Positions 7,745 through 25,807 of a stretch of 64,000 nucleotides of DNA are shown piece after piece. The notes below the pieces were generated by a model. It ran no database searches. It had not been told where the DNA came from and saw only the letters and a program-made list of their open reading frames with translations. The stretch comes from Euzebya rosea (GTDB lineage Bacteria > Actinomycetota > Nitriliruptoria > Euzebyales > Euzebyaceae). Made by a program: the position numbers and the translations under genes. Positions within the stretch are counted from its first letter, which is position 1. Each line of letters starts with the position of its first letter. The stretch lies in NCBI RefSeq assembly GCF_003073135.1, contig NZ_PGDQ01000006.1:310001-374000 (forward strand), read 5' to 3'.

Positions 7745-8206
7745 ATGGATTCGCCTCCTGAACGGGCCCCAGCTGGGCGGCGCGGAGTCGAAGCCATCCG
7801 CTCGGCCCCACGGATCCAGCCTTCAGCGTCGGCCGGTCCGGCGATTCCAGCCGCCGGTGGAGTCGATTCCATCCGCCCGGGCGACGCAGCCATCCGCCCG
7901 GGCGTCTGGACCTGGGCCGAGGGGGAGGGGACGACCGACCCGGCGGAGGGGTGCGCGGCGGTGCGTGCGACCGACGGGCTGCTCGAGCAGCTCCCCTGCG
8001 CCGACGCCGAGGCCCTGCCCGAGCTGTGCCGCAGCATCGCGGGAACGCTGACGGTGGTGCCGAGCTGTGGGCCCGACACCACCATCGACGTGCCGCGCAA
8101 CGGCTACGAGGCGCAGCGCGCCGCCGAGCTGCTGCATGCCGTGGGGGAGGGTCGGGCGGCCGTGTCACTGCAGCTCGTGGCTGGCCGCTGGGTCCCGACA
8201 ACTTGA
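7745..8206 (+). CDS. Hypothetical protein, weakly supported
   Basis: An open frame of about 153 codons fills the space between the divergent EEP gene and the end of the copper operon. Only the last 80 residues look protein-like, with alternating hydrophobic segments and two Cys (LPCADAEALPELCRSI, then VPSCGPDTTIDV). The first 70 residues are encoded by a DNA stretch with repeated ATCCGCCCGGGCG and GATTCCAGCC motifs and may be non-coding. A GTG at 7961 preceded by GGAGGGG could be the true start, giving about 81 residues. I recognise no family. Confidence 0.35.
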   Translation: MDSPPERAPAGRRGVEAIRSAPRIQPSASAGPAIPAAGGVDSIRPGDAAIRPGVWTWAEGEGTTDPAEGCAAVRATDGLLEQLPCADAEALPELCRSIAGTLTVVPSCGPDTTIDVPRNGYEAQRAAELLHAVGEGRAAVSLQLVAGRWVPTT

Positions 8207-8249
8207 CCCGACCGGGCGCGACCACGACGGCCGCGCCCGCCCCAGGCGG

Positions 8250-8744
8250 TCAGCCGGAGGCGACCTGCATGACCATCCCCGCCTCGTAGTGGCCGGGCTG
8301 GTGGCACCCGATCAGCAGCTCGCCGGACGCGGTCCCGGTCACCAGCAGCTCGCCGGTCTCGCCGGGGTCCACCGTGACCGCGTCACCGGCGTCGTCGCCG
8401 TCCGTTCCGTGGCCGCCGTGGCCGCCATGCCCGCCCCCCGCCTCGGCCATCTCGGCGCCGTGGGCGTCCTGCGCCGCGGCGTCCCCCACGAAGGCATCGT
8501 GGGGCAGCTCGCCGTCGTTGGTGAAGCGCACGCGCACGGTCTCGCCGTCGGCCACCGTGATGCTCGCGGGGGAGAACGCCAGGTCGGTCATCGTGACCTC
8601 GACCGTGCGCCCGGGCGCCGCCGTGGCCCCGCTGTCGGACGCGGGATCGGACCCCGCGTCCGGAGCCGCGCAGGCCATGGCCGTGATCGCAACCAGGGCA
8701 AGGGTCAGGGGCCAGCGGCGTCGTGTCGTCGTCATCGTGTTCAC
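8250..8744 (-). CDS. Cupredoxin-domain copper lipoprotein
   Basis: A 164-residue exported protein. A signal peptide ends in the lipobox-like AMACA, so it is probably a lipoprotein. The cupredoxin fold has type 1 copper ligands in the usual order: His in ELPHDAF, then Cys-His-Met in GCHQPGHYEAGM. A His/Gly-rich insertion (GGGHGGHGGHG) may bind extra metal. It follows the copper P-type ATPase with a GTGA start/stop overlap, so it is the third gene of a coupled copper operon and likely binds or oxidises copper outside the membrane. A second start at 8735 (MTTTRRR) is also plausible. Confidence 0.88.
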   Translation of the reverse strand: MNTMTTTRRRWPLTLALVAITAMACAAPDAGSDPASDSGATAAPGRTVEVTMTDLAFSPASITVADGETVRVRFTNDGELPHDAFVGDAAAQDAHGAEMAEAGGGHGGHGGHGTDGDDAGDAVTVDPGETGELLVTGTASGELLIGCHQPGHYEAGMVMQVASG

Positions 8745-10987
8745 CGTCCGTGGAACGTCTTGAGGCGCAGGGAGTTCCCCACGACGAAGACGCTCGAGAA
8801 GGCCATCGCCGCGCTGGCGATGAGCGGGTTGAGGTACCCCAGCGCGGCCAACGGAATCGCGGCCACGTTGTAGGCGAACGCCCAGAAGAGGTTGCCCTTG
8901 ATGGTACGCAGCGTTCGACGCGACAGCCGGATCGCCGTCGCCGCCGTTCGCAGGTCATCGCGCACCAGCGTGAGGTCGCTGGCCTCGATCGCCACGTCGG
9001 TCCCGGCGCCCATCGCCAGGCCCAGGTCGGCCTGGGCCAGCGCGGCCGCATCGTTGACGCCGTCGCCGACCATGGCCACGACGCGTCCCTCTGACTGCAG
9101 GCGCGCAACGACGGCCAGCTTGTCCTCGGGCAGCACCTCGGCGATGACCTCGTCGATCCCGACGGCCCGCGCCACGTGCTGGGCCGCCGCGGCGTTGTCA
9201 CCGGTCAGCAGGACCGGGGTCAGGCCGAGCGACCGGAGCTCGGTGATCGCGTCCGCAGACGTCGGCCGGACGGTGTCGGCCACGACGAGCAGGCCGTGCA
9301 CCTCACCATCCCAGCCGACCAGGACGGCCGTCTGGCCCCGTGCCTCCGCAGCCTCCTTGGCCGCGGACAGCTCGGCGTCCGGGTGCAGCGCCCAGTCTTC
9401 GAGGAACTGCTGGCGGCCGGCGACGACGGCGTGCCCGTCGACGACCCCCTGGACGCCCAGCCCCTGGGTGGACTGGAACGACTCCACGGCCGGCAGGGGG
9501 CCGAGCCGGTCGACACCGGCTGCCGCGATGGCCCTGGCGATGGGGTGCTCGGAGGCGTCCTCCAGCGCCGCGGCGATGCGCAGTAGCTCGTCGGGGTCGG
9601 TGCCGTCGGTGGCGACGACGTCCACCAGCGACATCCGCCCGGTGGTGATCGTGCCGGTCTTGTCCAGCACGACGGTGTCGACCCGTCGTGTCGACTCGAG
9701 GACCTCGGGGCCCTTGATGAGGATCCCGAGCTGGGCGCCGCGTCCGGTCCCGACCAGCAGGGCTGTCGGGGTGGCCAGGCCGAGCGCGCAGGGGCAGGCG
9801 ATGATCAGCACGGCAACTGCCGCGGTGAAGGCCAGGTTCGCCCCCGCGCCGAGGGCGAGCCACACGCCGAGGGTGAGCACGGCCAGCACCAGCACGATCG
9901 GCACGAAGACCGCGGAGATCCGGTCGGCCAGGCGCTGGATGGGCGCCTTGCCCGTCTGGGCGTCGGTGACCAGCCGGGCGATCCGGGACAGCTGGGTGTC
10001 GGCCCCGACGCGGGTTGCGCGAACGACCAAGCGGCCGCCGGCGTTGACGGTGGCGCCGGTCACCGTGTCGTCGGGCCCCACCTCCACGGGCACGCTCTCG
10101 CCGGTCAGCAGGGAGGTGTCGATGGCGGAGGTGCCCTCCACCACGACGCCGTCGGTGGCGACCTTCTCACCGGGCCGCACGACGAAGACGTCGCCGACGA
10201 CGAGCTGGTCGATGGGGACCCGGACCTCGATCCCGTCACGGAGCACCGCGGCGTCCTTCGCGCCGAGCTCCAGCAACGCCTTGAGCGCCGCGCCGGAGGA
10301 TCGCTTGGCGCGCGCTTCTGCGTACCGCCCGGCCAGCACGAACACCGTGACGGCAGCGGCGACCTCGAGGTAGATCTCGTGGGCACCGTTGCCGCGGCTG
10401 CCGGTCAGCTCCATCGACATGGTCATGCCGGGCATGCCGGCCCCACCGAAGAACAGCGCGTAGACCGACCACGCCATGGCAGCGATGGTGCCGATCGAGA
10501 TGAGCGTGTCCATGGTCGCGGCGCCGTGCCGGGCGTTCGTCCAGGCCGCCCGGTGGAACGGTGCGGCACCCCAGACCACCACCGGCGCGGCGAGGGTCAG
10601 GGCCAGCCACTGCCAGTTGGTGAACTGCAGCGCCGGCACCATCGACAGGAGGACGACGGGAAGGGACAGCGCAGCCGACACCACCAGGCGGTGGCGCAAC
10701 GCGGCGGTGGGATCCTCCGCTGGTGCTGCTTCGGCAGGGCCCACGGGGGCCGATCCCACCGCGGGCACGACGGTCGCGCGGTAGCCGACGGACTCGACGG
10801 CCTCCACCAGCGTGGCCGGGTCGACACCCGGAGCGGTGATCGTGGCCTGCTCCGTGGCGTAGTTGACGGTCGCCTCGACGCCGTCGAGGTCGTTCAGCCG
10901 CCGTTCGATCCGTCCTGCGCACGACGCGCAGGTCATCCCCTCTATGGCGAGGTCGACGGTGGCGGGTCTGGTGGCGAGCGTGGTCAC
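8741..10987 (-). CDS. copA: Copper-translocating P1B-type ATPase
   Basis: A 748-residue heavy-metal pump of the plasma membrane that exports Cu(I) using ATP. Domains in order: an N-terminal metal-binding HMA domain with GMTCASC (Cys20, Cys23), transmembrane segments, an actuator domain with TGES, the transport-site motif Cys398-Pro-Cys400, phosphorylation Asp442 in DKTGT, the HP motif in SEHPIA, and GDGVND. The CPC motif and the chaperone partner support copper specificity. Its ATG overlaps the stop of the upstream chaperone gene (ATGA), and its own stop overlaps the downstream cupredoxin start. Control probably comes from the CsoR-like sites upstream of the operon. Confidence 0.95.
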   Translation of the reverse strand: MTTLATRPATVDLAIEGMTCASCAGRIERRLNDLDGVEATVNYATEQATITAPGVDPATLVEAVESVGYRATVVPAVGSAPVGPAEAAPAEDPTAALRHRLVVSAALSLPVVLLSMVPALQFTNWQWLALTLAAPVVVWGAAPFHRAAWTNARHGAATMDTLISIGTIAAMAWSVYALFFGGAGMPGMTMSMELTGSRGNGAHEIYLEVAAAVTVFVLAGRYAEARAKRSSGAALKALLELGAKDAAVLRDGIEVRVPIDQLVVGDVFVVRPGEKVATDGVVVEGTSAIDTSLLTGESVPVEVGPDDTVTGATVNAGGRLVVRATRVGADTQLSRIARLVTDAQTGKAPIQRLADRISAVFVPIVLVLAVLTLGVWLALGAGANLAFTAAVAVLIIACPCALGLATPTALLVGTGRGAQLGILIKGPEVLESTRRVDTVVLDKTGTITTGRMSLVDVVATDGTDPDELLRIAAALEDASEHPIARAIAAAGVDRLGPLPAVESFQSTQGLGVQGVVDGHAVVAGRQQFLEDWALHPDAELSAAKEAAEARGQTAVLVGWDGEVHGLLVVADTVRPTSADAITELRSLGLTPVLLTGDNAAAAQHVARAVGIDEVIAEVLPEDKLAVVARLQSEGRVVAMVGDGVNDAAALAQADLGLAMGAGTDVAIEASDLTLVRDDLRTAATAIRLSRRTLRTIKGNLFWAFAYNVAAIPLAALGYLNPLIASAAMAFSSVFVVGNSLRLKTFHGR

Positions 10988-11202
10988 GACGTCACCTCGT
11001 ATCCGGCGTCGCGTACCGCGGCGGTGATCGCCTCCAGGTCGGCCGGCCCGTCGGTGCGCACCGTCATGGCACGGGAGCGGACGCTGACGTCGACGTTCGT
11101 GACGCCGGCCAGGGGGCTGACGGCATCCCGGATCGTCGCGGCGCAGTGGCCGCAGGTCATCCCGTCGATCGTGACGGTCGTGGTGGTGGGCTGGGTCGTC
11201 AT
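10984..11202 (-). CDS. copZ: Copper chaperone, heavy-metal-associated domain
   Basis: A 72-residue single HMA domain with the metal-binding motif GMTCGHC near the N-terminus and a ferredoxin-like alternation ending in RDAGYEVTS. Such proteins carry Cu(I) to the N-terminal domain of CopA. The ATG has AAGGAG 6 bases upstream. It is the first gene of the operon, directly behind two CsoR-like dyads, and overlaps copA by four bases. The family also includes mercury-binding MerP, but the gene order supports copper. Confidence 0.93.
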   Translation of the reverse strand: MTTQPTTTTVTIDGMTCGHCAATIRDAVSPLAGVTNVDVSVRSRAMTVRTDGPADLEAITAAVRDAGYEVTS

Positions 11203-11222
11203 GGCTGCTCCTTCTGGACGTG

Positions 11223-11276
11223 TATACCCCCGGTGGGTATATGGGATGCGAGGGAATATACCCCTAGGGGGTATAT
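11223..11276. promoter_or_regulatory. Two CsoR-like copper operators
   Basis: Two inverted repeats lie between copZ and the divergent deacylase gene. Site 1 (11223-11241) has perfect 7-bp arms TATACCC and GGGTATA around CCGGT. Site 2 (11256-11276) has perfect 9-bp arms ATATACCCC and GGGGTATAT around TAG. This AT-flanked C-tract/G-tract dyad is the known CsoR operator type. Site centres are about 34 bp apart, near three helical turns. No csoR gene lies in the window, so the repressor must be encoded elsewhere. Confidence 0.8.
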
Positions 11277-11320
11277 GTGCCAACAACAATCTCGACCGGC
11301 TCGTGCGAGGATCGGTGGCC

Positions 11321-11794
11321 ATGGACGCCCCACCCGCTGTTGCCGGCGCTGCCGCCCTCGGCCTGGACGTCGAGCTCAGCGACGTCGGCCCCTCCCGATC
11401 GATGGAGGAGCACGAGGCCAAGCTCGGCGTCGCGCCCGGCAGCCTCTGCAAGACCCTGCTGGTCCGCCGGGACGAGGACGACTACGTCTTCGTCGTCGTC
11501 TCCGGCGGCCGGAGGATGGAATGGAAGAAGCTCCGCGAGGCCCTCGGCGTCGACCGGGCGAGCATGGCCACCCGTGAGCAGCTGCTGGACGTCACCGGCT
11601 TTCTGCCCGGCACCGTCACCGTCCTCGGGGCGGCCCGCACCCTCCCCGTGATCATCGACGCCGTCGCCGCAGGGTTCGACCGGATCGCCGTCGGGTCCGG
11701 TGCCAGCGGCGTCTCGGCGCTGGTCGACACGCAGGCCTTCGTTGCCGCAACGAAGGCCACCGTCGAGGACGTGACCGTCCCCGATGGCCGCTGA
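11321..11794 (+). CDS. YbaK/EbsC-family aminoacyl-tRNA deacylase
   Basis: A 157-residue protein of the YbaK/ProX editing-domain family, which hydrolyses mischarged tRNAs such as Cys-tRNA(Pro). Typical features are the Lys in GSLCKTLLVRRD, the segment FVVVSGGRRMEWKKLREALG, and the C-terminal SGASGVSALVDTQAF region. The ATG start gives the usual family length; open frame continues upstream only as high-GC noise. It overlaps the next gene by 11 bases, so the two are probably co-transcribed, although the functions look unrelated. It is divergent from the copper operon. Confidence 0.87.
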   Translation: MDAPPAVAGAAALGLDVELSDVGPSRSMEEHEAKLGVAPGSLCKTLLVRRDEDDYVFVVVSGGRRMEWKKLREALGVDRASMATREQLLDVTGFLPGTVTVLGAARTLPVIIDAVAAGFDRIAVGSGASGVSALVDTQAFVAATKATVEDVTVPDGR

Positions 11795-16462: not shown

Positions 16463-16768
16463 TCAGTTGATCGTGACGTTGACGTCGCCGGCTTCGGCGT
16501 CGACGACGGTCACGACCGCCGGCAGCTCGGTGCCGTCGCTGGCGATGGCGATGCACTCGTAGGTGTCGCCGTCCTCGGCGTCGGCGAAGTCGACGCCGGA
16601 GCAGTCGGCCTCCCACGGCGACCCCTCGGGCAGCTGCTCGTCACCGATGGCGACGATGCCCTCGACGACCCTGTCGCTGTCGATGCCGCCGCCGATGGAG
16701 GCCTCGAACGAGCAGGCTGTCAGCAGGAGCGTGCAGGCAAGCGCGGCAAGCAGAAGAACGTGACGCAC
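16463..16768 (-). CDS. Small lipoprotein, DUF4333-like
   Basis: A 101-residue secreted protein. The signal peptide ends in the lipobox LLTACS, and the mature part has two Cys (EADCSGVDF and TYECIAIA) that could pair. The spacing and the ending strand AVVTVVDAEAGDVNVTIN resemble DUF4333 domains of actinobacterial lipoproteins. The GTG start has GAAGGGACG upstream. It lies downstream of the pseudokinase-FHA gene on the same strand with a 121-base gap. Function unknown. Confidence 0.75.
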   Translation of the reverse strand: MRHVLLLAALACTLLLTACSFEASIGGGIDSDRVVEGIVAIGDEQLPEGSPWEADCSGVDFADAEDGDTYECIAIASDGTELPAVVTVVDAEAGDVNVTIN

Positions 16769-16889
16769 GGGGCGTCCCTTCGTGTAGGTGCCAGCCCGAC
16801 GGACCAGCAGAAGCCGCAGACGGTACTGCCGTCGGGAAGGGACGCCAAACACCGTCTCCTGCCATGCAGGGTGTGCAGGTGCCGGGCGG

Positions 16890-18851
16890 TCAGCTGACGA
16901 GCCACGAGCTTCCCCCGGGGGAGATCGGAAGGCCACGGACGCGGTACAGGAGATCGGCGTGCTCGACGTCGTCCGCGGGCCCGTCGACCGGTTCGCCCAG
17001 TCGACTCCGCAGCTCGTTGGTGTGCTCGTCGCGGGCGGTGCGCCACGCCCCGGGCGCTGTGGCTCGCCAGATCCGGGCGATGGCGGCGAGGAACGTCTCG
17101 CCGCTCGACCACACGGCCATGGACGGCGACCACGTGATCGTCCCGGACTGATTCTCCACGGTGAACCGCCGCTGGTTCGCCCCCCAGGTCTCGCTGCGCA
17201 GGCGCACCACCTGATGCCACGGGACCGGCCGGCCGTCCCCCAGCGGACACAGCAGTCCGTCGGGGCCCGCGGCGACGACGACGGCCCGTTCGACGGGCAG
17301 GTCCTGGAGCACGACGCCGGCCTGCTCGATCCACGGGATGGGCTCGGCGTCTGCGGGGTTGGCGACACCGATGTCCGCGGCCACGACGGACGGCGGGCAA
17401 CGACCGGCGGCTGCCAGCCACGCCCCGATGAGCGGCTCGGTGTAGAGGCCGTCGCGAGCGGCAGCGGCGAGCAGCGGATGGGACGGCGGGGGCGGGATGA
17501 CCTCCTGATCGCGGAACCGCCGCCAGCGGAGCTCGACGGGTCCGAGGTGGATGATGTCGCCGTCCTCGAGGAACGTCGTGGAGAACTGCTGAACCTCCCG
17601 CGGTGGATGTCCCCCGGAGGAGATCCGTGTCCGACCGGCATGGTCCTCCAGCACCACACCCGTTCCAGCCGGCCGGATGCATGCATGGTCGGGCGCCAGC
17701 CCGTCGAGGCGCAGGTGGGCTCGGGGCGGGGCACCGCGCACGGCGTCGAGGTCGGCCCCGATCCACGTCTCGTGTCCGACCGGCAGGTACGTACCCGTTC
17801 GGGTGACCAACCATCCCAGCAGCTGGGGGCGCCGTCGCACTCGTGGGCCGGGTAGTGCCGGCTTCGGGCGGGGCGGCACAGGCGGAATCGGGGACGGCGA
17901 GGGCGGCGCAGCTGGGGTCTCGCGGATCCGCGTCGAGCCCGCCGGCGGGGTCCATCGGGGAGCGGACGAGACCGGCAGTCCGAGCTCGGACTGGACGCCC
18001 TGGATAATCGCGACGACCTCTGTCGACTGCGGACGGCTGCCCGGGTCGAGACTCATCAGCTGTCGCACGAGCGCTGCGGCTGGCTCGTCGACACCCTCGG
18101 CCGCCAGGTCGGCCAGCTGTCCCGCACACACGCGACAGAGCAGCGGGACGATCGACGACTCCTCGACGTCGGCTTGGCTGAGCGGGCGCCCGCGAAGCGC
18201 ATGGCCCAGCACCGCGCCGAGCCCGTAGACGTCCGAGGTCGTCGAGGCCGGCGAGCCCTGCAGCAGCTCCGGCGCCGCGTGTGCCATCGGAGCTGCCACC
18301 CGGTCGTTGCCGCCCAGGATGCGGTCCACGCCGATGGAACACCACACCGGCCGATCGACGTCGTCCCGTCGCACCGCGTCCGGCGCCACCCAGCCGAGCA
18401 GCCCGCCGACCTCGTGGACCGCCGCCATGCCCGAGGCCAGCAGCACCCCCAGGGACAGCACCTCCTCCACTGGCATCGGGGCGCGGCACAGGGTCGAGCG
18501 CAGGCTGCCGCCCGGGAGGACCGGCTCCGCCAGGTAGGCATCCCCTGTCGGCGTGACACCGGCCATCAGCACCGGCGCGACGTGGGGATGCGCGTGCCGG
18601 TCGGTCATTCGCCCAACGGTGTCCAGCAGCTCCTCGAGGCGTGCCGGGTCCCCGTCGAACCCCCGTTGCACCCTGACCGCGAGCTCCGCCCCCGTGGAGT
18701 GACGGGCACGGTGGACGGCGCCCCGTGAGACCTCGCCGACGAGCAGGGCCGGTCCGATGTCGGGGATGCGGAGGTCGACCATCCCCCCGCCCTTCCTGTC
18801 GCTGTCCTGCACGGCTGGACTGTCTACCGCAGCAGCGGGCCAGCTGTCCAT
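16890..18851 (-). CDS. Pseudokinase-FHA domain protein
   Basis: A 653-residue protein that joins a degenerate Ser/Thr kinase-like domain (about 30-270), a Pro-rich linker (about 285-325), an FHA domain (about 345-445) and an unassigned C-terminal region. The kinase part keeps APE (AAPELLQG) and SDVYGLG, but the ATP-anchoring Lys is Arg60 (LAVRV), the HRD triad is LGW (152-154), and DFG is SIG. It should therefore not be catalytic. The FHA part keeps the phosphothreonine-fold pattern with DGDIIHLG near its end. It may be a phospho-dependent scaffold. ATG at 18851 has GGAGGA 8 bases upstream; ATG at 18782 is an alternative. Confidence 0.8.
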   Translation of the reverse strand: MDSWPAAAVDSPAVQDSDRKGGGMVDLRIPDIGPALLVGEVSRGAVHRARHSTGAELAVRVQRGFDGDPARLEELLDTVGRMTDRHAHPHVAPVLMAGVTPTGDAYLAEPVLPGGSLRSTLCRAPMPVEEVLSLGVLLASGMAAVHEVGGLLGWVAPDAVRRDDVDRPVWCSIGVDRILGGNDRVAAPMAHAAPELLQGSPASTTSDVYGLGAVLGHALRGRPLSQADVEESSIVPLLCRVCAGQLADLAAEGVDEPAAALVRQLMSLDPGSRPQSTEVVAIIQGVQSELGLPVSSAPRWTPPAGSTRIRETPAAPPSPSPIPPVPPRPKPALPGPRVRRRPQLLGWLVTRTGTYLPVGHETWIGADLDAVRGAPPRAHLRLDGLAPDHACIRPAGTGVVLEDHAGRTRISSGGHPPREVQQFSTTFLEDGDIIHLGPVELRWRRFRDQEVIPPPPSHPLLAAAARDGLYTEPLIGAWLAAAGRCPPSVVAADIGVANPADAEPIPWIEQAGVVLQDLPVERAVVVAAGPDGLLCPLGDGRPVPWHQVVRLRSETWGANQRRFTVENQSGTITWSPSMAVWSSGETFLAAIARIWRATAPGAWRTARDEHTNELRSRLGEPVDGPADDVEHADLLYRVRGLPISPGGSSWLVS

Positions 18852-18889: not shown

Positions 18890-19588
18890 TCAGCCCGCGT
18901 CGGTGTGGCCCACCAGGCTGCTGAGGGCAGCGGCACCCTCCACGACCGCGGCCCGCGCACCCTCGAGTGCCTCGCCGTGCATCCGGAAGGTCGGCCCGAG
19001 CACGCTGACGGCCGCGACGACCTGCCCGTGGGCGTCGCGGACCGGGGCGCTGATGCCGGTCACGCCCTCCTCGACGGTGTCGCTGCCGACCGCCGCCTCG
19101 CTGTCGGGCAGCTCGCCGGCCAGGGCCCGGCCGACCGCCGTGCCCGACCGTGGCACGTCACGACCGCGCCACCCGGCGACCCGAAGGGTCATCGTGCCCT
19201 CCGCCGCCGCGAGGTAGATCGCGGTGTCCTCGTCGTGGGCGACCGCCAGGTAGCAGGTCTCGCGGGTCTCGGCGGCCACCCGGTCGAGGATGGGCTGGGC
19301 CAGCCGGGGGAGGGGGTGGCCGCCGACCACCCGGTGGGCCAGCCGCACCATGCGTGGCCCGGCGACGTAGCCCGAGGCGGTCCGGGCGACCAGCCCCGCG
19401 GCCTCCAGCGACGCCAGCTGGCGGGTGGCCGTCGACGGGGCCAGGCCCACCGCGTCCGACAGCTGCGTCAACGTCAGCCCGCCCTCGCCGGCGACACCGA
19501 TGCCCTCCACGACCGCCACCAGCAGGGTGAGGACGCGGTCGGAGGACCGGGCGGTCGGTCGGCTGCTGGGGTCTGGGCTGGGCGTCAC
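18890..19588 (-). CDS. IclR-family transcriptional regulator of the hut operon
   Basis: A 232-residue regulator with an N-terminal winged helix (LTLTQLSDAVGLAPSTATRQ then LASLEAAGLV) and a C-terminal IclR effector domain with a GAF-like fold (RAVGRALAG-like SGTAVGRALAGELP, GVTGISAPVRDAHGQVVAAVSV). GTG at 19588 has AGAGGA upstream. It is divergent from hutH with only 44 bases between the starts, which contain two matching TTCC-N7-GGAA sites, so it very likely controls the hut genes. The inducer could be urocanate or histidine, by analogy with hut repressors of other families. Confidence 0.9.
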   Translation of the reverse strand: MTPSPDPSSRPTARSSDRVLTLLVAVVEGIGVAGEGGLTLTQLSDAVGLAPSTATRQLASLEAAGLVARTASGYVAGPRMVRLAHRVVGGHPLPRLAQPILDRVAAETRETCYLAVAHDEDTAIYLAAAEGTMTLRVAGWRGRDVPRSGTAVGRALAGELPDSEAAVGSDTVEEGVTGISAPVRDAHGQVVAAVSVLGPTFRMHGEALEGARAAVVEGAAALSSLVGHTDAG

Positions 19589-19603
19589 ATCGTCCTCTTG
19601 ACA

Positions 19604-19638
19604 TTCCGTTTGATGGAAGTAGATTCCGCCACATGGAA
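19604..19638. promoter_or_regulatory. Tandem IclR-type operators at hutH
   Basis: Two 15-bp dyads of the form TTCC-N7-GGAA lie at 19604-19618 (TTCCGTTTGATGGAA) and 19624-19638 (TTCCGCCACATGGAA). Their starts are exactly 20 bp apart, about two helical turns, so two dimers could bind one face. The second covers the hutH start codon at 19633, so occupancy would block hutH transcription or translation start. Binding by the adjacent IclR protein is inference. Confidence 0.65.
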
Positions 19639-21189
19639 GCATCTGTCGTCGTCGGACGCAACGGGGTCGCCCCGCAGGACGTGGTCGAGGTCGCCCGCCG
19701 GGGCGCACGGGTCGTGCTGGGTGATGACGCCCGCGAGGCCCTGGCCCGCGGCGCCGAGGTCGTCGCCGGGCTGCTGGACAAGCCCGAACCCGTCTACGGC
19801 GTCTCCACCGGGTTCGGTGCCCTCGCCGACACCGTGATCCCCGCCGAGCGGTCCGCCGAGCTGCAGCAGGCGCTGGTCCGCTCCCACGCCGCAGGCATGG
19901 GGCCGGAGCTCGAGCAGGAGGTCATCCGCGCGATGATGATGCTGCGCGCCCGGTCGCTGGCCATGGGCTACAGCGGCGCCCGCCCCCACGTCGCCGAACG
20001 GATCTGCGAGGTGCTGAACGCCGGCATCGTCCCGGTCGTCCGCGAGCACGGCTCCGTCGGCGCCTCCGGCGACCTGGCCCCCCTCGCCGCCGCTGCCCTC
20101 ACCCTCACCGGAGAGGGCATCGTCGACACCCCGACCGGACGCAAGCCCGCCGCCGAGGCGCTCGCCGACGCGGGCCTCGACCCCCTCCACCTGAGCGCCA
20201 AGGAGGGGCTGGCGCTGATCAACGGCACCGACGGCATGCTCGGCATGCTGGTCATGGCGCTGCACGACCTCCGCGACCTGTACCTGATCGCCGACGTCGC
20301 CGCCGCCATGACCGTCGAGGCGCTGCTCGGCACCGACCAGGCCTACGCCGCCGACCTGGTCGCCATGCGCCCCCAGCCCGGCCAGCAGGCGTCGGCCGCC
20401 AACCTGCGCAACCTGCTCGCCGGCTCGCCGACCGTCGCCAGCCACCGCCACGGCGACACCCGCGTGCAGGACGCCTACTCGCTGCGCTGCACCCCGCAGG
20501 TGCACGGCGCCGGCCGCGACGTCATCGACTTCGCCGCCACCGTCGCCGATCACGAGCTGCGCAGCTTCATCGACAACCCTGTCGTCCTCGACGACGGCCG
20601 GGTCGCGTCCTGCGGCAACTTCCACGGCGCCCCCGTCGCCTACGCCGCCGACCTGCTGCGCATCCCCGTCGCCGACCTGTCGGCCCTGTCCGAGCGACGC
20701 ACCGACCGGATGCTGGACCCCGCCCGCTCCCACGGGCTGCCGCCGTTCCTCACCACCGACGCCGGCGTGAACTCCGGGCTGATGATCGCCCAGTACACCC
20801 AGGCGGCGATGGTCACCACCAACCGTCGGCTGGCCGCCCCCGCCAGCGTGGACACCCTGTCGACCTCCGCCGGGCAGGAGGACCACGTCTCGATGGGCTG
20901 GGGGGCCTGCCGTGCCCTCCGCGAGGTCGTCGCCAACCTGCGGCGCATCCTCGCCGTCGAGGTCCTTGCCGCCACCCACGCCCAGGCGCTCCGTGGCACC
21001 GGCCTTCCGCCGAGCGGGCAGCCCCTGCAGCCCGGTGCCGCCACCGGTGCGGTCGCCGAGGTCGTGCTCGACGCCGCCGGTGGGCCCGGCCCCGACCAAC
21101 ACCTCGAGCCCCGCCTCGCCGCCGTCGAACGGCTGCTCGAGGACGGCTCCGTGCTGGCCGCCGCCCGCGCCCACGCCGACCTGACCTGA
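19633..21189 (+). CDS. hutH: Histidine ammonia-lyase
   Basis: First enzyme of histidine breakdown: removes ammonia from L-histidine to give urocanate. The 518-residue length is normal for the family. The self-formed MIO electrophile comes from Ala144-Ser145-Gly146 within GSVGASGDLAPLA, and the catalytic Tyr lies in VYGVSTGFG. Other family motifs are INGTDGML, QDAYSLRCTPQVHGA and STSAGQEDHVSMG. It opens the operon; its start codon sits inside the second putative IclR operator. Confidence 0.96.
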   Translation: MEASVVVGRNGVAPQDVVEVARRGARVVLGDDAREALARGAEVVAGLLDKPEPVYGVSTGFGALADTVIPAERSAELQQALVRSHAAGMGPELEQEVIRAMMMLRARSLAMGYSGARPHVAERICEVLNAGIVPVVREHGSVGASGDLAPLAAAALTLTGEGIVDTPTGRKPAAEALADAGLDPLHLSAKEGLALINGTDGMLGMLVMALHDLRDLYLIADVAAAMTVEALLGTDQAYAADLVAMRPQPGQQASAANLRNLLAGSPTVASHRHGDTRVQDAYSLRCTPQVHGAGRDVIDFAATVADHELRSFIDNPVVLDDGRVASCGNFHGAPVAYAADLLRIPVADLSALSERRTDRMLDPARSHGLPPFLTTDAGVNSGLMIAQYTQAAMVTTNRRLAAPASVDTLSTSAGQEDHVSMGWGACRALREVVANLRRILAVEVLAATHAQALRGTGLPPSGQPLQPGAATGAVAEVVLDAAGGPGPDQHLEPRLAAVERLLEDGSVLAAARAHADLT

Positions 21190-21215
21190 ACCTCGCCCAC
21201 ACCGTCGACCCCGCC

Positions 21216-21232
21216 TGACCCCGATGGGGTCA
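21216..21232 (+). promoter_or_regulatory. Hairpin in the hutH-hutU gap
   Basis: A perfect 7-bp inverted repeat (TGACCCC, loop GAT, GGGGTCA) lies in the 96-base gap between hutH and hutU, the only real gap in the operon. There is no U tract. It could stabilise the 3' end of a processed hutH message or weakly attenuate. Role not shown. Confidence 0.4.
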
Positions 21233-21285
21233 CCGACGACGCCCACCACGCCCACGAAGCCGATCACCACAGAGAGGACATCGCC

Positions 21286-22941
21286 ATGAGTGGTCCCCGT
21301 CCCGTCCGCGCCGCCCGCGGTACCGAGCTGACCGCCCGGTCGTGGCAGACCGAGGCACCCCTGCGGATGCTGATGAACAACCTCGACCCCGAGGTGGCCG
21401 AGGAACCCGACAAGCTGGTCGTCTACGGCGGCACCGGCCGGGCCGCCCGGTCGTGGGAGGCCTTCGACGGCATCGTCGCCGCGCTCACCGACCTGGCCGA
21501 CGACGAGACGCTGCTCGTGCAGTCCGGCAAGCCGGTCGGCGTCATCCGCACCAACCCGTGGGCACCCCGCGTGCTCATCGCCAACTCCAACCTCGTCCCC
21601 GACTGGGCGAACTGGGAGGAGTTCCGCCGGATGGAGGCCGAGGGCCTGACCATGTACGGCCAGATGACCGCCGGGTCGTGGATCTACATCGGCACCCAGG
21701 GGATCCTGCAGGGCACCTACGAGTGCTTCGCCGAGATCGCCCGCCGACGCTTCGACGGCAGCCTGGCCGGCACCATCACCCTGACCGCGGGCCTGGGCGG
21801 CATGGGCGGCGCCCAGCCGCTGGCCGTCACCATGAACGACGGCGTCGCCCTGTGCATCGAGGTCGTCCGCTGGCGTGCCGAACGCCGCGTGGAGCACCGC
21901 TACCTCGACGTCATCGCCGAGGACATCGACGACGCCATCGCCAGGTGCATCGAAGCACGCGACGCCAGGCAGCCGCTCAGCGTCGGGCTGATCGGCAACG
22001 CCGCCGAGCTGGTCCCGCAGCTGCTCGAGCGCGGCTTCCCCGCCGACATCGTGACCGACCAGACCTCGGCCCACGACCCCCTCAGCTACGTGCCCGTCGA
22101 CGTCAGCCCCGAGGCCGCCGCGAAGATGGCGGCCGAGCAGCCCGAGGAGATGACCCGCCGCGCCCGCGAGGCCATGGCCGCCCACTGCCGGGCGATGGTC
22201 GGCTTCCAGGACGCCGGCGCCGAGGTCTTCGACTACGGCAACAGCCTGCGCGCAGAGGCCAGGCTCGGCGGGTTCGACCGGGCCTTCGACTACCCCGGCT
22301 TCGTGCCCGCCTACGTCCGGCCGCTGTTCTGCGAGGGCAAGGGCCCGTTCCGCTGGGTGGCCCTGTCCGGCGACCCCGCCGACATCGCCGTCACCGACCA
22401 GGCCGTCCTCGACACCTTCCCCGACGACGAGCCCCTCCACCGCTGGATCAAGAAGGCCTCCGAGCAGGTGGCCTTCCAGGGCCTGCCCGCGAGGATCTGC
22501 TGGCTGGGCTACGGCGAGCGGGCCAAGCTCGGCAAGGTGTTCAACGACCTCGTCCGCGACGGCAAGGTGTCGGCGCCCATCGTCATCGGCCGTGACCACC
22601 TCGACTCGGGCTCCGTCGCCTCGCCCTACCGCGAGACCGAGGGCATGATCGACGGGTCCGACGCGATCGCCGACTGGCCGCTGCTCAACGCCCTGTCGAC
22701 CACCGCCTCCGGCGCCACCTGGGTCAGCATCCACCACGGCGGCGGGGTCGGCATCGGCCGGTCCATCCACGCCGGCATGGTCTGCCTGGCCGACGGCACG
22801 GAGCTTGCCGAGCAGAAGCTGGAGCGGGTGCTGACCACCGACCCCGGCCTGGGAGTCATGCGCCACGCCGACGCCGGCTACGACATCGCCAAGGACGTCG
22901 CCCGCGAGCGCGGCGTGAAGATCCCCCTGCTGGAGGGCTGA
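21286..22941 (+). CDS. hutU: Urocanate hydratase
   Basis: Second enzyme of histidine breakdown: adds water to urocanate to make imidazolonepropionate using tightly bound NAD as an electrophile. The 551-residue length and the motifs [46 protein letters not shown] and the C-terminal [13 protein letters not shown] are characteristic. The ATG has AGAGGA 7 bases upstream. It is followed after three bases by the PhyH-type dioxygenase gene. Confidence 0.96.
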
Positions 22942-22944
22942 GCC

Positions 22945-23799
22945 ATGACCGCACGTACCGACGCCATCGAGATCGACGCCGAGACGATCGAGGCCTACCA
23001 GCGCGACGGCGTGGTCGTCGTCCGCGGGGCCTTCTCGCCAGAGGACGTCGAGCTGGCCCGCCGGGCCGTCGACGCCAACCTCGCCGACCTCTCGCCCAGG
23101 GCCAAGCGGGCTTCTGCCGACGACGACGGCGCGTTCATCGAGGACTTCTGCAACTGGCAGCGGATCCCCGAGATCGAACGGTTCGTCCGCGAGTCCCCGG
23201 CCGCCCGGATCGCCGCCCAGCTGATGGGCAGCCGGACGGTGCGGCTGTACCACGACCACATGCTGACCAAGGAGCCCGGCACCCGTCAGCGCACCCCGTG
23301 GCACCAGGACCAGCCCTACTACAACGTCGAGGGCACTCAGAACACCTCGATGTGGTTCCCCGTCGACCCCGTGGACCGCGAGTCGACGCTCGAGTTCGTG
23401 GCCGGCTCGCACTCCGGTGAGTGGTACATGCCCCGCACGTTCCAGGACGCGCAGGCCAAGTGGTTCCCCGAGGGGACGCTGTCGGACCTGCCAGACATCG
23501 AGGGCGACCCCGACCGCTGGCCCGTCGTCGGCTGGGCGCTCGAGCCCGGCGATGCGGTCTTCTTCAACATGCTCACGCTGCACGCGGCCGGCGGGTCGAC
23601 CCGTCGTCGTCGGGTCATCTCCATCCGGATGCTGGGCGACGACATGGTGCACGCGCCGCGGCAGTGGACGACGTCCCCGCCGTTCGACGGGCTGGCAGAC
23701 GAGCTGCCCGCCGGGGCGCCGATGGACCACCCGCTGTTCCCGGTCCTGTGGCCCGTGGGCGAGGCGGATGCCGTGGACGCATCGGGAGCCGCGGGCTGA
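22945..23799 (+). CDS. Phytanoyl-CoA dioxygenase (PhyH)-family Fe(II)/2-oxoglutarate oxygenase
   Basis: A 284-residue non-heme iron dioxygenase of the PhyH family. The iron ligands fit His120-x-Asp122 (TPWHQDQPYYN) and His213 (LTLHAAGGSTRRRR), with the following Arg cluster for 2-oxoglutarate binding. PhyH enzymes hydroxylate small molecules such as acyl-CoAs, ectoine or amino acids. The gene starts three bases after hutU and its stop overlaps the next start (TGATG), so it is firmly inside the hut operon, where no oxygenase is needed for the known pathway. It may process a histidine derivative. Function unknown. Confidence 0.85.
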   Translation: MTARTDAIEIDAETIEAYQRDGVVVVRGAFSPEDVELARRAVDANLADLSPRAKRASADDDGAFIEDFCNWQRIPEIERFVRESPAARIAAQLMGSRTVRLYHDHMLTKEPGTRQRTPWHQDQPYYNVEGTQNTSMWFPVDPVDRESTLEFVAGSHSGEWYMPRTFQDAQAKWFPEGTLSDLPDIEGDPDRWPVVGWALEPGDAVFFNMLTLHAAGGSTRRRRVISIRMLGDDMVHAPRQWTTSPPFDGLADELPAGAPMDHPLFPVLWPVGEADAVDASGAAG

Positions 23800-24383
23800 T
23801 GGCGGTTCGTCCGCTGGTCCACGTCGGCGATCCGGTCCTGCGCACGCCGACCACCCCGATCGCCGTGGAGGACCTGGGCTCGGCGGCGGTGCAGGGGCTG
23901 ATCGACGACCTGATCGACACCATGCACGACGCCGGTGGGGCGGGGATCGCCGCCACCCAGATCGGTGCGTCGCTGCGGGTGGCGATCGCCGAGGTCGGTC
24001 CGCACACCCGGGAGCGGTACCCCTACAAGCCGCTGATCCCGCTGACGGTGCTGGTCAACCCGACCCTCGAACCCATCGAGGAGGAGGGGACCGAGCCGAT
24101 CATCGAGGGCTGCCTGTCGGTGCCGGCCATCCGCGGCGAGCTGCCCCGGTGGACGGCGGTGCGGGTCCGCTGGCTGGACCGCGCCGGCGGCGAGCACGAC
24201 GAGGTGGTCCGCGGGGTGACCGCCGGCACGTTCCAGCACGAGGTCGACCACCTGGACGGCATGGTCTTCCTCGACCGGGTCGCCGACCCGCGGACGTTCA
24301 CGACGTGGGAGAACTACGACCGGTTCCACCGCGAGGCCTTCGAGGCACGCATCAGCGAGTACGTGGCACGGGTCGGCTCGTGA
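23799..24383 (+). CDS. Peptide-deformylase-family metallohydrolase in the hut operon
   Basis: A 194-residue protein with all three peptide deformylase motifs: GAGIAATQ (about 47-54), EGCLS with metal-ligand Cys105, and QHEVDH with His147, catalytic Glu148 and His151. It should be an active Fe/Zn deformylase. Ordinary deformylases remove formyl groups from nascent proteins. This one is translationally coupled between the PhyH gene and hutF (GTGA overlap), and HutF makes N-formylglutamate. With no hutG visible, it may be the N-formylglutamate deformylase. That function is inference; a housekeeping role is the alternative. Confidence 0.88.
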   Translation: MAVRPLVHVGDPVLRTPTTPIAVEDLGSAAVQGLIDDLIDTMHDAGGAGIAATQIGASLRVAIAEVGPHTRERYPYKPLIPLTVLVNPTLEPIEEEGTEPIIEGCLSVPAIRGELPRWTAVRVRWLDRAGGEHDEVVRGVTAGTFQHEVDHLDGMVFLDRVADPRTFTTWENYDRFHREAFEARISEYVARVGS

Positions 24384-25807
24384 CCGTCGACTGGTACGCC
24401 TGTGACCAAGCGCTGGTCGGGGCACCGTCCCACGGCGTCGTCGCCGACCGGGTGGTGCTGGGTGTCGCCGACGGGCGCCTGGCCACCGTCGAGGTCGACA
24501 GCGCGCGGTTCGACGAGGTGGCGGCGGCGGGGACCCACCTGCGGGGGCTGACCCTGCCGGGGTTGGTCAACGCCCACTCCCACGCCTTCCACCGGGCGCT
24601 GCGCGGTCGCACCCACGGGGTGGCGGGGGCCGGCGAGCCGGGATCGTTCTGGACGTGGCGCGAGGTCATGTACGGGGTCGCTGGCCGGCTGGATCCCGAC
24701 CGCTACCACGCGCTGGCCCGAGGGGTGTTCGGCGAGATGGCGCTGGCCGGCATCACCGCCGTCGGCGAGTTCCACTACCTGCACCACGACGTCGACGGCC
24801 GCCCGTACGCCGACGCCAACGTGATGGGGGAGGCGATGCTGGCGGCCGCCGCCGAGGCCGGCATCCGCATCACCCTGCTGGACACCCTCTACCTGACCGC
24901 CGGCGTCGGCGACACGGTGGCGGCGCCGGGCCTTTCGTCGGTGCAGCAACGCTTCTCCGACGGGTCGGTGGAATCGTGGCTGTCCCGCCTAGCCGACCTC
25001 GCTGGGCGTGTCGGGGGAGCAGAGGGAGCTGTTGGAGCGGGGGCCCGCGTCGGGGCGGCGCTGCACTCGGTCCGTGCGGTACCGGCGTCGGTCCTTGGCG
25101 ACGCCGTCGCAGGGGTGGCCGAGGTGCTGGGCGACGTGTCCGTCCTGCATGCCCATGTGTCGGAGCAGCCGGCGGAGGTGTCGGCCTGTGTCGAGGCGCT
25201 CGGGGTGTCGCCCGTGGTCCTGCTGGACCGGGCCGGAGCGCTGGCCCAGCGTTTTACCGCCGTGCACGGGGTGTGGCTGGACGAGGGCGACATCGGCCTG
25301 CTCGGCTCGACCGGTTCGACGGTGTGCGCCTGCCCCACGACCGAGCGGGACCTGGCCGACGGCGTCGTCCCGGCGGTGGCGTTGCGGGACGCCGGCGCGG
25401 ACCTGGCGCTCGGGTCGGACCAGCACGTCGTGATCGACCTGCTGGAGGAGGCCCGGGCCGTCGAGGCCGACCTCCGGCTGGTCGCCCAGCAACGTGGCCT
25501 GCTGTCCCCGGCGTCGCTCGTCGCGGCGGCCACGGCCGGTGGGGCCCGGTCACTGGGGTGGGCCGACGCCGGTCGGATCGAGGAGGGGGCGCTGGCCGAC
25601 CTGTGCGTCGTCGGCCTCGACTCGGTGCGCCTCGCAGGGGTGTCGGACCTGCTGGCCGGGGTCGTGCACGCCGGGACCGCGGCGGACGTCACCCACACCA
25701 TCGTCGGCGGCCGCGTCGTTGTGGCCGGCGGGCAACACCTCGGCATGGACGTGGCCGAGGCCCTGCGATCCTCCATCTCCTCCCTTGCATCGGAGCGTCG
25801 ACCGTGA
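24380..25807 (+). CDS. hutF: Formimidoylglutamate deiminase
   Basis: Deiminates N-formimidoyl-L-glutamate to N-formyl-L-glutamate and ammonia. The 475-residue amidohydrolase has the metal motif HSHAFHRAL (His66, His68), then FHYLHHD, HAHVSEQ, a His in VHGVWL, and the metal Asp in GSDQHV. The combination HAFHRALRG and SEQPAEV is typical of HutF. GTG at 24380 overlaps the deformylase-like gene stop, and its stop overlaps hutI. HutF implies the five-step route that ends with N-formylglutamate hydrolysis. Confidence 0.92.

Follow-up and report, generated by a model that had tools for sequence, protein, structure and literature searches.

To our knowledge, bacterial pseudokinases are largely unstudied. 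In the T7SSb, the pseudokinase YukC does not bind ATP and contacts the FHA region of YukB, apparently without phosphorylation, and the FHA domains of YukB are without phosphothreonine (pThr) contact residues (PMC9600267). In the MviN/FhaA pair of Mycobacterium tuberculosis, a canonical FHA domain binds the phosphorylated tail (PMC12599244, PMC6180346). The GLW pseudokinases have G-L-W in place of HRD, a bulky residue at the b3 Lys and a transmembrane region, and come mostly from proteobacteria (PMC12599244). Here we describe a gene from a stretch of 64,000 nucleotides of the Euzebya rosea genome, called the window throughout, whose product (the window protein) has features of each of these systems.

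The window protein resembles YukC/EssB and YukB/EssC in its degraded kinase motifs, its shortened activation loop and an FHA domain without pThr residues, and we propose that the likeness may extend to a contact that is apparently independent of phosphorylation. Unlike the T7SSb, whose secretion machine carries the two folds on two different membrane proteins, the window protein is a single chain, apparently soluble, that ends in a new C-terminal domain. EssB and YukC are marked by a transmembrane part, an extracellular domain and a place in a T7SSb locus, a combination that is absent here, and there are no secretion genes near the window gene. A role as a T7SS component was rejected, since the genome has its WXG100 locus on a different contig and the window protein has no membrane part.

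With MviN/MurJ (of the ActPs3 group) and FhaA, the window protein shares the combination of an actinobacterial pseudokinase with an FHA domain and the loss of all three catalytic motifs, and with MviN/MurJ also a bulky aromatic residue in the active-site region and a shortened activation segment. This segment is 24 residues long where the closest active kinases have 28, so that the ActPs3 deletion is present. The motifs themselves differ, reading VALT, LSIDHPSR and Y-- in MviN and AVRV, LGWVAPDA and SIG in the window protein, so that the ActPs3 pattern (VALT, LSIDHPxR and a degraded DFG, as given by the three ActPs3 examples in Table 1 of PMC12599244) is not seen. Moreover, MviN is a flippase fusion that goes with a canonical FHA domain, whereas the window protein has no membrane part, such as the transmembrane region of many ActPs3 members, and its own FHA domain is degenerate. 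The MurJ ORF of this genome, at 578 aa, is too short for a fused pseudokinase of ~230 residues. A place among pseudokinases of the MviN kind, which had been raised in a preliminary description of the locus, was therefore given up. The Lys to Arg replacement is as in ActPs2, but the Asp of HRD is Trp and not Asn, and the loop is shortened where ActPs2 has an insertion of about 250 residues. The Trp within the replaced HRD motif recalls the GLW pseudokinases, but the order is L-G-W, the b3 residue is Arg, and the protein appears soluble and is actinobacterial by its relatives. Judged by the features stated in PMC12599244, the predicted protein does not belong to ActPs2, ActPs3 or the GLW family. 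It appears to be a variant of the pseudokinase scaffold, a kind of protein already known, in which kinase and FHA domains are both degenerate.

Kinase and FHA domains are encoded together elsewhere in the same genome too (L042:5756-8055), where a kinase with HRE, DLG and intact Lys and Asn is followed by a canonical FHA protein. Unlike the window protein, these are separate genes, the kinase keeping K, N and DxG and the FHA domain keeping GR, SRxH and NG. In a tree, the pseudokinase clade is placed beside this kinase with a support of 0.59 and on a long branch, hence as a lead only, and it is possible that the pair is a modern relative of an ancestral kinase-FHA pair.

Gene and domains of the window protein

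The open reading frame is uninterrupted over 653 codons and, with its strong coding bias (GC3 0.86 vs GC2 0.56), is a genuine gene. Two ATG codons are candidate starts, one at 18851 with GGAGG upstream, and one at 18782. The paralogues become similar from the second of these onwards, and are 51% identical to the window protein from M24 on, over the full length. The order of parts is pseudokinase, Pro-rich linker (about residues 290-343), degenerate FHA domain and an orphan C-terminal domain (Table 1). The protein has no clear transmembrane stretch, the best 19-residue Kyte-Doolittle mean being 1.57, within the kinase fold.

Table 1. Positions in the window of the pseudokinase-FHA gene and its parts
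Feature	Position	Strand	Basis and remarks
Whole gene	16890..18851	minus	653 aa from ATG 18851; 630 aa if the start is ATG 18782
Kinase-like domain without K72, HRD, N171 and DFG Asp	17970..18782	minus	Pfam, AF2 fold, VIA-align, residue table
Former catalytic loop, LGWVAPDA in place of HRDxKxxN	18372..18398	minus	Alignment, residue table
Shortened activation segment SIG...APE	18267..18338	minus	24 residues, zero Ser/Thr
Pro-rich linker	17820..17983	minus	Sequence; disordered in model, pLDDT 34-40 across most
FHA-fold domain without pThr-contact residues	17510..17822	minus	Fold model, residue alignment, sub-threshold Pfam
C-terminal domain, about 197 aa	16893..17483	minus	Conserved in 5/5 family members; beta-rich core then helices predicted, low confidence

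The preliminary description had noted a kinase-like domain with Arg at the ATP-lysine, without HRD and DFG and with APE and SDVYGLG kept, and both Pfam and an alignment with 21 further kinases encoded in this genome bear this out. When the domain was scanned alone, its C-lobe matched Pfam Pkinase at 33.5 bits, above the cut-off of 31.7. A fold prediction without a kinase-like domain had been named as what would refute the assignment, and a kinase-like fold was found: in the AF2 model the first ~270 residues form a kinase (pLDDT mostly 80-98), and the closest structure is PknA (VIA-align Z 28.8, rmsd 2.8 over 260 residues). Active kinases were present in the input alignment of this model and the fold was thus expected, but the sequence evidence is independent. 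Comparing residues, K72 is replaced by R60, H/R/D by L152/G153/W154, K168 by A156, N171 by A159, and D184 and F185 of DFG by S172 and I173; G186, the PE of APE, SDVYGLG, D220 and the C-lobe Arg R280 are kept. The 21 comparators are nearly uniform at these sites, with K in 20, H in 21, D166 in 20, N in 21 and D184 in 21. The closest active kinases have 4-8 Ser/Thr in the activation segment and the window copy has none. At these sites the other two family pseudokinases read R, I-G-W, A, S and G-V-G, and the same kinds of loss in all three indicate that the motifs were lost before the duplication. That the window protein is non-catalytic is well supported by the residues, as every nucleotide, metal and catalytic position is replaced, likewise in all three pseudokinase copies, and we infer that the domain retains its bilobal fold and does not use ATP. 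Thus, of the non-catalytic scaffold first suggested, the loss of catalysis stands, and the scaffold is a reasonable reading of it.

An FHA domain had been placed after the Pro-rich linker, and its fold was recovered by Foldseek, VIA-align and hhalign, although the sequence is sub-threshold in Pfam (E 0.048, 14.5 bits vs a cut-off of 20.7). The model was built from the five family members only, with a mean pLDDT of about 69, rising to 81-89 over most of the later strands of the FHA fold. It matched solved FHA structures in Foldseek with a prob of 1.00 (best E 5.5e-5), its best VIA-align match was EmbR (Z 14.0, rmsd 1.6 A over 88 residues), and hhalign of the window FHA with four canonical FHA sequences gave about 94%. 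What the preliminary description had passed over is that the pThr contacts are gone: GR is GA (A366), SxxH is APDH with A386 for the Ser, and the Asn-Gly turn is absent, which leaves the His of SxxH (H389) as the sole residue of the pThr motif. Both FHA-only paralogues are also without the Arg, the Ser and the Asn-Gly turn, and in the other two pseudokinase copies the whole b3-b4 segment of the FHA domain is missing. By alignment and model, then, the window FHA appears as degenerate as its kinase domain, with a clearly predicted beta-sandwich whose pThr pocket is gone, and it would not bind phosphothreonine. This removes the basis for the earlier view that the protein reads the output of an active kinase, a role that would need a non-canonical pocket.

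The further conserved domain at residues ~457-653 had likewise escaped earlier notice. Its identity to the paralogues is 42-52%. It has no Pfam match up to E 10 and no credible PDB sequence match, and in a fold search of the model that includes it the matches were filled by FHA structures. From its strand pattern, a PH-like domain would be a guess only.

Family, distribution and history

The family is very narrow, with two species so far. Its five known members are the window gene, a tandem pair in the same genome and a tandem pair in the nearest species (G003), and the reading frames are intact in all five. The same-genome pair is at an unlinked locus on a separate contig (L033) and consists of a pseudokinase with a truncated FHA domain (9613-11463) and an FHA-only protein (8547-9584), the first without the b3-b4 part of the FHA domain and the second without the kinase domain. 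No other family members were found in the two other congeners (G001, G002) or in 66 genomes of the class, and a profile of the FHA and C-terminal domains detected no other full member among 396 evenly sampled genomes of the phylum or in viral contigs or plasmids. A wide family was rejected, as a search of genome contigs with the window protein returned only distant kinases in other phyla, and two weak profile matches were discarded, one (L036) being a canonical FHA gene that adjoins a kinase and the other (L037) a frame opposite a likely topoisomerase-type gene, which we took as chance.

In L033 the pair is followed by a third gene (7961-8518), and the same trio is present in the closest species (L034), in both cases between guaB and a cell-surface polysaccharide cluster. 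The third protein, of 185 aa, is 96% identical between the species (L033:7961-8518, L034:11391-11948), has no Pfam match and is absent from the window locus. Beside the trio, L033:1485-4697 and L034:15236-17698 encode a polysaccharide flippase-like protein, apparently fused to an APH-type phosphotransferase in which the HGDxxxxN and DxE residues are present.

At the window locus the nearest species has an empty site, where the flanking IclR and lipoprotein genes are present with only about 80 bases between the aligned blocks. Conserved neighbours in other genomes, proposed at the outset as something to look for, were thus not found, the nearest species keeping the flanks without the pseudokinase gene. 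The window copy was either lost in G003 or gained in the Euzebya rosea genome, and, as it differs strongly from the paralogues, loss in G003 or an older transfer is favoured. In the C-terminal domain, the pseudokinase and FHA-only paralogues are 58% identical to each other, and the window protein is 52% identical to the pseudokinase and 43% to the FHA-only protein, values that fit a split within the tandem locus after divergence from the window copy. The tandem pair probably derives from an ancestor built like the window protein, with one copy losing the kinase domain and the other part of the FHA domain. The orthologous pseudokinases of the two species have a dN/dS of 0.17 in the kinase part and 0.25 in the rest, against 0.02 for guaB, which indicates that the gene at the other locus is maintained, if less strictly than guaB. 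For the window copy against its paralogue (~51% identity), the kinase part gave a dN of 0.44 and a dS of 0.82 (NG86), and at such a high dS this is weak evidence of selection.

Directly downstream of the pseudokinase gene, the window encodes a DUF4333-type lipoprotein (16463-16789, sub-threshold Pfam), which is kept in G003. On the other side, at 18890-25807, an IclR-type regulator adjoins apparent histidine-utilisation genes that are unrelated to the pseudokinase; a tie to either was rejected, as the nearest species has those genes without the pseudokinase. An anti-phage role was also dismissed, since the PADLOC PD-T4-6 and mad6 kinase models match generically, through the kinase fold, and nothing nearby supports defence.

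Possible roles of the window protein

We incline, with moderate confidence, to the view that the window protein is a soluble non-enzymatic adaptor, blind to ATP and to phosphothreonine, that acts by protein-protein contact. The kinase domain would keep its bilobal fold without using ATP, its activation loop having no phosphorylatable residue, and the FHA domain would keep its beta-sandwich without the pThr pocket. Contacts independent of phosphorylation could then be made through the kinase fold, the FHA fold and the lineage-specific C-terminal domain, much as the YukC pseudokinase binds FHA domains that are blind to pThr in the T7SSb ATPase, but with both folds in one chain. We infer this adaptor role from the replacement of nucleotide, metal and catalytic residues in three pseudokinases, the window activation segment without Ser/Thr, the FHA domains of the window copy and the two FHA-only paralogues, which keep the fold but have no pThr contacts, the five intact frames, the purifying selection on the orthologous pair, the lack of a clear transmembrane stretch and the YukC precedent. 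Against it stand the lack of a conserved gene neighbour and the empty site in the nearest species, as well as the facts that some Lys-to-Arg pseudokinases bind nucleotide and that non-canonical pThr binding by an FHA domain is possible. A longer history can be put forth more tentatively, in which a kinase writer and an FHA reader were fused, both were switched off and kept as an adaptor, and the adaptor was later split into pseudokinase-rich and FHA-only partners that cooperate via the new C-terminal domain.

If the adaptor reading is right, the window protein offers, in compact form, an example of a phosphorylation circuit whose two halves have apparently lost their chemistry and kept their folds. 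The narrow range, with two species known, limits its general weight, but fused and split forms in one genus make a phosphorylation-independent kinase-FHA scaffold testable with soluble proteins, away from any membrane secretion machine.

The alternative that the pseudokinase serves as an anchor while the FHA domain reads phosphothreonine, using a non-canonical pocket to bind what an active kinase has phosphorylated, seems unlikely to us. The FHA fold is clear, its structural His (H389) is kept and about 20 Ser/Thr kinases of the genome appear to be active, but the Arg, Ser and Asn-Gly turn are gone from the window FHA and both FHA-only paralogues alike, and two copies have dispensed with the b3-b4 segment altogether. 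To the same low degree we would credit a docking platform like MviN, in which the window protein is phosphorylated outside the kinase fold, for example on a linker Thr, and recruits the canonical FhaA of the genome. FhaA is recruited in this way by the MviN pseudokinase, whose C-terminal tail is phosphorylated (PMC12599244; PMC6180346), a canonical FhaA-like protein (L049) is available in the genome and the linker contains Thr and Ser; nevertheless, most of the linker Thr residues have no counterpart in the paralogues, there is no link to MurJ and the activation loop offers no Ser/Thr. It is more doubtful still that the gene is a decaying duplicate, a non-functional remnant heading for loss as may have happened in the nearest species. 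The empty site in G003, the loss of catalytic and pThr residues and the restriction of the family to two species would fit such decay, but a 653-codon open frame with strong codon bias, 51% full-length identity to a paralogue, the retention of all three domains together and a dN/dS of about 0.2 for the orthologous pair at the other locus would not. Finally, residual nucleotide binding or a new chemistry in the altered pocket is very improbable, for although ATP or other ligands are bound by Lys-to-Arg pseudokinases such as KSR1 and EphB6 (PMC12599244), the metal ligands Asn171 and the DFG Asp are gone here, Trp occupies the position of the catalytic Asp, and MviN, with bulky residues in its pocket, binds neither ATP nor Mg (PMC12599244).

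Other phospho-signalling genes of the genome

The genome encodes canonical FhaA-like and FhaB-like proteins, with genes for a PP2C phosphatase and a RodA-like protein adjoining, and the FhaA-like protein has all the pThr-contact residues. The T7SS-like cluster on another contig (L100, L101; G000:C1:222001-250000) encodes WXG100 proteins, MinD-like ATPases, a von Willebrand-type protein and a PP2C. A long ORF there (search frame 1561 aa) encodes an FHA protein whose pThr residues are canonical, and FtsK/SpoIIIE-type ATPase sequence comes next. A further product of the cluster (L100:4144-7665) is kinase-like and has Ser at the ATP-binding Lys, HLD and DAG.
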